From NCBI RefSeq assembly GCF_041346945.1, contig NZ_CP166850.1, positions 7,052,501-7,116,500 of the forward strand: a stretch of 64,000 nucleotides of DNA, given 5' to 3'. Shown piece by piece: positions 48,177 to 50,588 of the stretch. Every line of letters starts with the position of its first letter. Position 1 is the first letter of the stretch. Below the pieces are notes generated by a model. The model made no database searches, was not told where the DNA came from, and saw only the letters and a program-made list of their open reading frames with translations. Source of the DNA: Amycolatopsis sp. cg9. GTDB lineage: Bacteria; Actinomycetota; Actinomycetes; Mycobacteriales; Pseudonocardiaceae. The translations under genes and the position numbers were made by a program.

Positions 48177-48443
48177 GTGCGCGCATACTGCGTCCATGGG
48201 GAGGGCCGGGCGCAGGGCGTGCGGCGCGAGGTCGCCGAGCTGCCGAGCGTGCTGTTCGCGGCCTACGGCCTGACCGCCCGCGAGCGTGCCGTCTGCCGCG
48301 AGGTGCTGGCCGGTTTGTCCACAGTGGACATCGCGGAGCGGCCGGCCATCTCGGCCCACACGGTGCAGGACCACCTCAAGTCGGTGTTCGGCAAGACGGG
48401 CGTCCGCAGTCGCGGGGAACTGACGGCGAAGCTGTTGTCTTGA
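48177..48443 (+). CDS. LuxR-type helix-turn-helix fragment
   Basis: 88 residues. The C-terminal ~60 are a LuxR (GerE) DNA-binding domain: LTARERAVCREVLAGLSTVDIAE and SAHTVQDHLKSVFGKTGVRSRGELTAKLL. Full regulators of this type carry 200 or more residues of sensor domain, absent here, and the helix 2-3 turn reads RPAIS instead of the usual RLFIS. This looks like the surviving end of a larger gene. GTG 48177 is the start giving most residues, without a clear ribosome site. Confidence 0.5.
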   Translation: MRAYCVHGEGRAQGVRREVAELPSVLFAAYGLTARERAVCREVLAGLSTVDIAERPAISAHTVQDHLKSVFGKTGVRSRGELTAKLLS

Positions 48444-48582
48444 CGTGTCCGGGAATTGTCCTTCGACGATTCCCGGAACCGCGGTACCAGGGCGAAAATG
48501 CCGTCCCCGGAATCGACGATGGCATGCTACGGTCTGCAAATTGCAGGTGCCGGAAATGCGCGGTTGCGCCGGAGGGAGCAGC

Positions 48583-50247
48583 ATGTCCGACGACACCACG
48601 CGGTACCTGTGCGCGGCGGCCTACCTCGACCCCGGCTACAGCACGCGGGCGATCAAGGAATTCCTCGTCGAACCCACCCGGCCGGTCCCGGCGACGCCGG
48701 GGATCGACGCGGGCCGCGTGCTCACCGAGGCGGTGCGGGCCCGGGCGCGCCGGAAGAACTACGACGTGATCCTGGTGCTGCTGATGGCCGTCGTCGCCTC
48801 GCTGTCGTGGGACAACGTGCTGCTGTACGCCTGGATCGTCGTCTCGGTCCTGTTCGTGGCGGCGCGGGCGGGCAAGACCGCCTACGCGACGCAGCGCACC
48901 TTCAACCCCAAGACGCTCGTCGCGATCGGCTTTTCCATCGTGACCGTCTGGCTGCTGCTGACCTTCTCGGACGACCTCTTCGCCGACGACCGCAGCCGGT
49001 ACGCCGCGAGGTACGAGGACTACTACGACGAGACCTCGGGCGGCGACACGGCCCGGCTCGTCGTCGGCATCGTGCTCGCCGTGGTGGTGCTCGTGGTGGT
49101 GACGATCGAGCGGTGGTCGCTGTGGAACCTGCTGACGACCCGCTTCCGGCGCCTCGCCCCGCCGGCGCCCGACACCGGCCGGCTCACCGGGGCGTTCACC
49201 GAAGACTTCCGCGAGCAGCTCGGCCGGTACCGGCGGGAAGACGAATTCGCCGGTGCGCCCGGCGCGCCCCTGGTGGTGTACCGCGGCTACAACCCCTTCG
49301 TGGGCGCCGGGTTCCGGCGCGCGGCCTGGTCCATGGCGATCCCGCTGGAGCGGGTCGAAGACGGCGAAGACGCCCCGGAGACCCGGCCGGAGCTCACCAC
49401 CGAGGCGCTGTACGAAGGGATCCGCGCGGCGATCGGGAACCTCCGCAACTCGAGCGCGCTGTCGCCGGACCGCCGGCTGGCCGGGCTGACCGTGACGGAG
49501 GCGGTGTTCACCCCGGCCGCGGAGCTCATCGACCACCTGGCGGAGCCGGAAGCCGCGGCCTACCTGCCGGACATCGAGTACCCGCCGCACACGCGGCTGA
49601 CCGAGGCGCACGTCGAGCAGCTGCGGACCGAGCCGAAGGAATGGGCGCGCTACTACCTGTGCTTCCAGGTCGAAACCTGGGACCGGGAGCTGGTGCTGAC
49701 GACGTTCCTGCACGTCGCGGTGGACGACACGACGCTGTACGTCGAATGGACGCCGTTCATGCTGCCGCCGGTCAAGGCCGAGTACCGCGCGGTGGACAAG
49801 ATGCGGCCGGACTCGCTGCGCCCGTTCGGCCAGGGACTGCTGGCGTGGCTGGAGATGCCGGCGAGCCTGCCGGGCCGGGTCGCGAACCTCGCCTCGTGGA
49901 TCCGCCGGCCCGGCCGCGAGCCCGGGGTCCTCGACCCGGACCGTTACGGCACCGCGCGCACGTTGCGCGAACTGGGGTCGGTGAACAAGTTCACCGACTA
50001 CTTCCAGCTCGTCGACATCGAACGCTACGAGAAGATCATCGAAAGCCGGCTCCTGCCGGCGATCGGCAAGCTCCTCGGCGACGCCGGGTTCTCCACGGCC
50101 AAGTTCGACGAGCAGGCGGCGGTCGTGATCAACAACGACATCACCATCGAGGGCGACAACCGCGCCCCGATCAGCCAGACCGGGGTGCGCGGCCAGCGCC
50201 GGCGCCCGCCCGGCAAGCCCGACGACGCGACCAGGACGGAGACCTGA
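48583..50247 (+). CDS. Four-helix membrane protein of unknown function with C-terminal GDN motif
   Basis: 554 residues, family not recognised. An N-terminal soluble segment begins DDTTRYLCAAAYLDPGYSTR and contains EFLVEPTRPVPATPGID; membrane helices lie at about 61-76, 78-95, 111-129 and 157-175; a ~345-residue cytoplasmic domain follows (VVYRGYNPFVGAG, then WARYYLCFQVETWDREL). Near the C terminus is ITIEGDNRAPISQTG (520-534), repeated in similar form in the next protein. The ATG at 48583 follows GGAGGGAG. Its stop overlaps the partner start by one base (TGATG). A membrane-anchored sensor or effector is possible but unproven. Confidence 0.8.
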   Translation: MSDDTTRYLCAAAYLDPGYSTRAIKEFLVEPTRPVPATPGIDAGRVLTEAVRARARRKNYDVILVLLMAVVASLSWDNVLLYAWIVVSVLFVAARAGKTAYATQRTFNPKTLVAIGFSIVTVWLLLTFSDDLFADDRSRYAARYEDYYDETSGGDTARLVVGIVLAVVVLVVVTIERWSLWNLLTTRFRRLAPPAPDTGRLTGAFTEDFREQLGRYRREDEFAGAPGAPLVVYRGYNPFVGAGFRRAAWSMAIPLERVEDGEDAPETRPELTTEALYEGIRAAIGNLRNSSALSPDRRLAGLTVTEAVFTPAAELIDHLAEPEAAAYLPDIEYPPHTRLTEAHVEQLRTEPKEWARYYLCFQVETWDRELVLTTFLHVAVDDTTLYVEWTPFMLPPVKAEYRAVDKMRPDSLRPFGQGLLAWLEMPASLPGRVANLASWIRRPGREPGVLDPDRYGTARTLRELGSVNKFTDYFQLVDIERYEKIIESRLLPAIGKLLGDAGFSTAKFDEQAAVVINNDITIEGDNRAPISQTGVRGQRRRPPGKPDDATRTET

Positions 50248-50588
50248 TGGGACACCGGATTTCGAACAAGGTCAGCATCGGCGGCGACAACTCGGGCGAC
50301 ATCAGCCAGACGGGCATCGACGGCGGCGGGGGCGAGGCCGCGGTCTCGTCGCTGCTGGACCTCGTCGAGCGTCTGACGGCCGAGGTGCGCGGCAAGGAGC
50401 TGGCCAAGCAGGAGGTGCTGGAGGACACGCTGACGGACCTGGCCGCGGACCTGCGCGCGGGCGACGCCGCCGAGCCGGCGGTGGTGCGCAGCCGGTGGGA
50501 GAAGGTGAAGGGCCTGCTGGGCGGGCTCGTGCAGTTCTCGGAACTGGTGGCGAAGATCTCCGACCAGGTGCAGAAGATCTTCACCTGA
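50247..50588 (+). CDS. Small partner protein with N-terminal GDN motif and coiled coil
   Basis: 113 residues, family not recognised. Residues 9-23 read VSIGGDNSGDISQTG, nine of fifteen identical to a segment near the end of the upstream protein. The rest is helical and charged (LLDLVERLTAEVRGKELAKQ, then a C-terminal LVQFSELVAKISDQVQKIF), likely a coiled coil. The ATG shares one base with the upstream stop, so the two are made together. Short polar motifs of this style occur in small proteins near bacterial conflict genes, but no named family fits. Confidence 0.78.
   Translation: MGHRISNKVSIGGDNSGDISQTGIDGGGGEAAVSSLLDLVERLTAEVRGKELAKQEVLEDTLTDLAADLRAGDAAEPAVVRSRWEKVKGLLGGLVQFSELVAKISDQVQKIFT

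Follow-up and report, generated by a model that had tools for sequence, protein, structure and literature searches.

A gene pair situated in a window of 64,000 nucleotides from Amycolatopsis sp. cg9 (the whole stretch of DNA that was analysed) encodes a membrane protein, A, of an unannotated family and a small partner, B, which share a short motif in the C-terminal tail of the former and at the N terminus of the latter. The comparative data presented below suggest that the two motif copies act as a homotypic address tag. A and B together probably constitute (we would put the probability at roughly 55 %) a signalling unit of two components held together by a homotypic amyloid-type motif, in which A would serve as the receptor or platform and the partner as the output. 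An earlier note on this DNA had proposed an undescribed system, and a search of open-licence papers (a body outside of which most subscription papers lie) yielded no earlier account of the A/B pair, which accords with that proposal.

Table 1. Coordinates of the features of the A/B locus, numbered from the first base of the window
Feature	Coordinates	Strand	Remarks
GGAGGGA, ribosome-binding-site-like, 5' of gene A	48571-48577	+	read from sequence
Gene A: membrane protein, unannotated family	48583-50247	+	554 aa
Four-transmembrane-helix region of A	48757-49107	+	residues ~59-175; hydropathy windows, loop charges, structure model
Cytosolic alpha/beta domain of A	49195-50142	+	residues 205-520; weakly like helix-grip (START/Bet v 1) folds
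Motif copy of A, C-terminal tail	50140-50184	+	residues 520-534
Gene B: partner of A	50247-50588	+	113 aa
Motif copy of B, N terminus	50271-50315	+	residues 9-23
Small helical (DUF5955-related) domain of B	50340-50585	+	limits set by eye

The features of the locus are listed in Table 1. The two genes overlap by one base, the single A of TGATG, and the motif of 15 residues contains nine positions that are identical in A and B (I, G, D, N, I, S, Q, T and G); on both points the earlier note was exact. Local alignment of A against B likewise picks out the motif as the highest-scoring stretch (63, over 22 ungapped columns), and none of 3000 shuffled A/B pairs reached that score (mean 31, maximum 55). 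When all ORFs of at least 100 aa in the window (n=328) were compared with B, the frame of B itself scored 553 and that of A 63, and the next frames scored 57 and 53, so that the window pair taken singly is only moderately striking; its security comes from the comparative evidence. The same codons are used at seven of the nine identical residues, in a GC-rich genome that restricts codon choice. A motif profile built with the A and B copies retrieved A and B from the source genome (10.6 Mb), with no other match at E <=10. The closest non-self matches of A and B were those of Amycolatopsis lexingtonensis (96% and 94%, respectively).

Protein A had been described in the earlier note as a four-helix membrane protein, and hydrophobic windows at residues 62-97 (two helices), 111-129 and 157-175 agree in this respect with four long helices of a structure model (residues 43-74, 79-103, 109-127 and 153-187). 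The cytosolic domain, of 316 residues, was confidently modelled; its resemblance to helix-grip (START/Bet v 1) folds is weak and lies under the level to be trusted, and sequence searches of solved structures, with the whole of A and with its domain, returned nothing usable. Residues 521-554 have pLDDT values below 50, and the tail is disordered in the model. Matches of A to Pfam and NCBIfam were all far under the cut-offs and PADLOC gave none, while B matched nothing in any of the three, which bears out the claim that no known family is represented. The motif is conserved among 52 close relatives of A (P0001 and P0041-P0091, mostly Amycolatopsis by name and one named Streptomyces): all 52 fit a pattern, written from these same sequences, that fixes I, Q and G of I-x-Q-x-G. 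G-D-N, left free in the pattern, is invariant in all 52 too, and the residues past the motif are more variable.

Co-variation of the two motif copies was assessed by comparing each A tail with every ORF of at least 70 aa able to start between -45 and +250 nt of the stop codon of A. No selection by score was made, all downstream ORFs being candidates for own and cross pairs alike. A threshold score of 45 for own pairs was our choice, and shuffles of the window pair reach 55, so that single scores of about 45 mean little. Within the family, own pairs scored at least 45 in 91 of 114 cases, versus 1.75% of 10,154 cross pairs (A bodies <40% identical). For 57 family representatives (<60% identical) the mean own score was 66.9, compared with 30.3 after permutation (sd 1.5, maximum 37.4 in 20,000 permutations), and the own partner was best or tied in 34. 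Addition of 38 A genes from distant loci, 35 of them scoring at least 45, gave an extended set in which own pairs reached the threshold in 126 of 152 A genes, versus 3.3% of 19,960 cross pairs; 34 representatives with A <40% identical had an own mean of 68.0, against a permuted mean of 30.8 (sd 1.86, maximum 41.0 of 20,000), with the own partner best or tied in 24. The motif matches had a median length of 27 residues and 55% identity, and 100 of the 126 were ungapped. In comparison with the rest of A they were rich in Asn (8.2x), Gly (2.6x) and Ile (2.4x) and poor in Leu, Arg and Glu.

As judged from these alignments, motif types differ widely between lineages, and the tag appears to change in A and in its partner together. 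Among close relatives (A bodies 60-95% identical, in a selected set), the own partner was no better than that of the relative, which indicates that specificity lies in the motif type and that the tags drift slowly. A score-selected set of 45 representatives gave 76.5 for own pairs versus 31.6, figures that are inflated because the pairs had been chosen at scores of at least 45. A criterion of ORF-start adjacency, which gave 43 of 117, was dropped, since stop-to-stop ORFs begin upstream of the stop codon of A; it was replaced by a criterion based on where the motif match lies (93 of 117), which in turn gave way to the selection-free design.

Genomes that contain more than one pair provide a further comparison. 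For the two or three pairs present in each of seven genomes, own scores ranged from 51 to 132 (15 pairs) and cross scores from 18 to 44 (18 comparisons); the A bodies are 24-42% identical, and each tail fits its own partner best. These seven (G588 included) are all of the genomes with at least two fetched A genes in which each had a match of at least 45, the multi-A genomes covered being those with all A copies fetched. In three more genomes from which two A genes were fetched, one or both copies fail this comparison, with own scores of 39 and 18 (G223), 21 and 72 (G327) and 23 and 24 (G184). On the evidence of these scores, parallel pairs appear to be insulated by tag sequence. At one locus (L141) the gene order is reversed, with B upstream of A, and the motifs match: the N terminus of this B scored 68 with the tail of its own A, the first of 152 tails, the next being 45. 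A metagenome protein of 708 aa (P0133) is a natural A-B fusion that has kept both motif copies. The assembly of A and B on the shared motif, as suggested in the earlier note, is thus supported at the level of sequence by the co-variation, by the reversed order with the motif kept and by the fusion with both copies.

No match at 45 was found for 26 of the 152 A genes, and these include whole clades without an adjacent partner. The exceptions are of the Saccharothrix/Umezawaea type (L055, L058, L059, L062, L064 and L094) and the Crossiella type (L054, L056, L097, L098 and both A genes of L099), together with L051, L053, L063, L121, L135, L136, L145, the frame-affected L067, and L141, which, its order being reversed, has no downstream match. 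Scores of 36-43, under the threshold, were obtained for L103, L108, L178, L182 and L186, which look alike by eye. The A genes of L099 lie in tandem in one genome, both without a motif-bearing downstream partner.

In the A genes of the Saccharothrix/Umezawaea type the tail is conserved and the adjacent partner absent. A tail profile applied to six such genomes recovered all six tails; at E <=10 it gave another 40 weak matches, eight of them at E <=0.3 (best 0.005, 0.031 and 0.047). A reversed-profile control gave 27 matches at E <=10, three of them at E <=0.3 (best 0.115), and the excess is therefore modest. A motif of the type G-x-V-x-G-x-V-V-Q-x-G was seen by eye in 11 of 14 further matches read, ahead of the rest of the protein in nine of those 11 and at the C terminus in one (L207, an ORF of 198 aa). 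When 10 of the further matches were submitted to Pfam, seven matched NB-ARC, NACHT or other STAND profiles, five of these above a cut-off. As a search for a trans-encoded partner in genomes of this type, these scans gave only weak matches. Resemblances of this kind suggest that the A tails may belong to the same broad class as the NLR-associated signalling motifs. Several STAND/NLR-like proteins of Saccharothrix-type genomes (L203-L209 and L213-L216) carry a GxVxGxVVQxG-type motif before the NTPase part.

The A profile matched 132 of 390 genomes of the family of the window (Pseudonocardiaceae) and 51 of 394 genomes sampled from its class, some of the latter matches being partial or weak. A scan of named genomes identified 35 loci, from Amycolatopsis, Actinokineospora, Kibdelosporangium, Lentzea, Saccharothrix, Crossiella, Actinophytocola, Solihabitans and Umezawaea. 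Strong B-type matches (E <=1.1e-15) lay within 450 nt of an A match in 116 of 120 cases. The outcome that the earlier note had set against its own proposal, independent occurrence of the genes with an unconserved motif, was accordingly not observed, given this adjacency and the fit of all 52 A relatives to the pattern. At E <=0.001 the B profile was matched in 199 of the 390 family genomes, more than the 132 with A; the weaker of these matches are often partial, and weaker B-type matches are also present in genomes without A, so that the helical domain of B, by profile match, is found apart from A as well.

The partner was called a small coiled-coil protein in the earlier note. It is small, at 113 aa, but the alignment points to a small all-helical domain related to DUF5955, a better description than a coiled coil. 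PF19380 (DUF5955) was matched by 21 of 56 aligned B-type sequences at E <=0.1 (best 6.7e-8); the B of the window gave no PF19380 match, nor was PF19380 found in its genome at E <=0.1. No paper naming DUF5955 was found among the open-licence papers searched. Partner starts were picked on motif score, nearer ones being slightly favoured; they lie at most 20 nt from the stop codon of A in 118 of 126 cases and overlap it in 81 of 126. The small-helical-domain profile matched 112 of the 126 partners, and the 56 sequences used to train it largely coincide with those matched. The other 14 comprise two SEFIR proteins (L047 and L048; 1.3e-15 and 1.6e-16), one TIR-like protein (L102; TIR_2 at 8.4e-6, under the cut-off of Pfam), three EAD1 proteins (L170, L176 and L193; 1e-13, 8.4e-15 and 4.5e-12), two with an unassigned domain of ~220 aa (L057 and L061) and six that look by eye like diverged helical domains. 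SEFIR and TIR-like domains are effector or adaptor domains, and EAD1 is of the effector/adaptor type according to excerpts of PMC7159879. Because SEFIR, TIR-like or EAD1 domains fill the same slot in related loci, an output or adaptor role is the most likely one for B.

Two kinds of partner have further features. The domain of ~200-220 aa in L057 and L061 starts with LGFVxDIVxxG, and a similar sequence occurs in L113; these ~220-aa partners have a cyclase-like look, for which no search gave support. The partners of L171, L172, L175 and L179, of ~180-190 aa, have by eye two motif copies ahead of the helical part.

The neighbours of the pair in the window are a RelA/SpoT enzyme, an amidohydrolase, a MarR regulator, a LuxR-type helix-turn-helix ORF, an alpha/beta hydrolase and an enoyl-CoA hydratase, and its surroundings are not a defence island. 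The connection with bacterial conflict raised in the earlier note is indirect: it is favoured by the SEFIR, TIR-like and EAD1 partners at other loci and by the weakly NLR-like tail of one clade, and disfavoured by the housekeeping neighbours and by the silence of PADLOC. The LuxR-type ORF (88 aa; 48177-48443, + strand), just 5' of A, contains little beyond the DNA-binding domain (GerE, 8.6e-12) and may be what is left of a longer regulator, or else a small orphan one. No general third gene was found among 82 representative loci; the widest cluster of flanking ORFs was the antisense shadow of A (38 of the 82 loci), and the others covered at most 14 loci. One such cluster, in 12 of the 82 loci, is a third gene that comes after the pair at some distant loci (L159:6998-7993, with similar ORFs in L157 and L161), which encodes a proline-rich protein that starts MSGG-RYWNE-TQRWED and has one hydrophobic segment. 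A scan for promoters and terminators gave nothing useful.

The binding of A to B, the amyloid structure, the direction of signalling, its trigger and its effect are what we infer from these data, and the proposed mechanism would run as follows. The four helices would hold A in the membrane. Its cytosolic domain, which may have a helix-grip fold that binds a ligand or lipid, would face inward, and the disordered tail would end in the motif. A stimulus would expose or cluster the A tails, and the clustered tails might form a small in-register cross-beta (beta-arch) nucleus. That nucleus could template the corresponding N-terminal motif of B and so recruit B to the membrane, where clustering of its helical domain would pass the signal on; divergence of the tags would insulate parallel pairs within one cell. 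The length, the Gly/Asn content, the disorder, the scarcity of gaps and the position of the motif suggest an NLR-free relative of the amyloid signalling sequences, and bacterial amyloid signalling sequences of comparable length, composition and position are described in the available excerpts of PMC8086366, PMC7889193, PMC9815663 and PMC12261475. A more far-reaching version of this reading is that A, as a membrane sensor, is the constant receptor of an undescribed, NLR-independent form of prion-like signalling in actinomycetes, the hypervariable tail being an orthogonal amyloid address tag by which each paralogue recruits only its own partner (helical, SEFIR, TIR-like or EAD1). We advance this version tentatively, as somewhat less probable than the general one.

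Other explanations of the motif pair must be weighed against the signalling unit proposed here. It is very improbable that the motifs are alike by chance, through low complexity or gene conversion, or as a by-product of the gene overlap. The identical codons at seven of nine residues of the window pair would fit such an origin, although codon choice is restricted anyway in a GC-rich genome; the permutation tests, the locus of reversed order and the persistence of the likeness across A bodies <40% identical all argue against it. Gene conversion and overlap constraint in particular were rejected on account of L141 and of the unlikeness of the remaining parts of the proteins. A fairly unlikely reading, which every co-variation result would suit as it would any specific contact, is that the motif docks the two proteins through beta-strands, homotypically or heterotypically, and so serves as a subunit address in a constitutive A-B complex with neither prion-like templating nor a triggered signal. 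Two motif copies in one chain, as in the fusion and, by eye, in the four partners mentioned above, would also be compatible with docking. What speaks for templating instead is that the length and Gly/Asn richness resemble, by eye, the tested BASS3 and sigma peptides in excerpts of PMC8086366, and that the tail of one clade is weakly like the motifs of NLR-like proteins.

Amyloid-type coupling might also operate in the opposite direction, with A as a membrane executioner in the place of Bell/HeLo and the partner as the triggering sensor. In the available text of PMC7889193, the C-terminal motif of BASS lies on the membrane-acting protein and the N-terminal one on the receptor, and A, a membrane protein, has that polarity. 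This arrangement nevertheless seems rather unlikely, given that some partners carry SEFIR, TIR-like or EAD1 domains, that B is too small for an obvious sensor and that A has a large conserved domain of 316 residues, unlike Bell, which is a small bundle (PMC7889193, in excerpt).

If the tentative version of the signalling reading is true, several templating channels would operate side by side in one cell, each insulated from the others. The available part of a review (PMC7889193) raises the question of whether bacterial pathways that are independent of NLRs also employ signalling amyloids. The A family offers 126 matched motif pairs outside the NLR/Bell setting, and the different tags within one genome are built-in specificity controls, so that this question becomes testable. 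A role is also suggested for an unannotated membrane family and for the relatives of DUF5955.

Among known families and systems, DUF5955 (PF19380) is similar to B in being a small helical domain and differs in that the B of the window has no match to it. Neither A nor B gave an EACC1 or caspase match in Pfam, which presumably holds an EACC1 model, and no caspase match was among those listed for the partners given to Pfam; the exclusion of EACC1 rests on the number of helices. In excerpts of PMC7159879, the EACC1 membrane two-gene conflict system, common in actinobacteria, similarly has a membrane component that stays constant and, after it, a partner gene that varies, but it has one transmembrane helix and a caspase-type partner, whereas A is a four-helix protein whose cytosolic domain is large. 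The EADs of NTP-dependent conflict systems, as presented in excerpts of PMC7159879 and PMC8195603, are likewise non-enzymatic coupling elements duplicated in adjacent genes, the two adjacent copies being more alike than others, and EAD1 itself occurs in the three partners noted above. They differ in that the coupling element of the present pair is a motif of 20-30 residues in a disordered tail rather than a globular domain, and in that the window contains no MoxR-vWA, GAP1 or STAND core. Pfam (E <=5) gave no EAD match in A or B, EAD1 being present only in the partners of three distant loci.

BASS, the NLR/Bell amyloid signalosomes of multicellular bacteria, were reportedly described by Dyrka et al. 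2020. As they appear in the available excerpts of PMC7889193, PMC8086366 and PMC9815663, BASS resemble the A/B pair in several respects: two adjacent or overlapping genes, many unlike motif families, occurrence in actinomycetes, and a short motif carried C-terminally by a membrane-acting protein and N-terminally by its partner. Here, too, the C-terminal end of A and the N-terminal end of the neighbouring gene product were found to share a motif of 20-40 residues. The published survey of BASS, according to excerpts of PMC9815663, sought motifs repeated between Bell and NLR genes, whereas the locus of the pair has neither an NLR nor a recognised Bell domain (a small helical bundle with a membrane helix): an NLR partner would be an NB-ARC/NACHT STAND NTPase, whereas B has 113 aa and no Pfam match, and the partners were classified as helical, SEFIR, TIR-like, EAD1 or unassigned, with no NLR. 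In comparison with BASS as so presented, the C-terminal carrier of the motif is here a four-helix membrane protein of 554 aa with a conserved domain of its own, and its partner is a small helical protein, replaced at other loci by SEFIR, TIR-like or EAD1 proteins.
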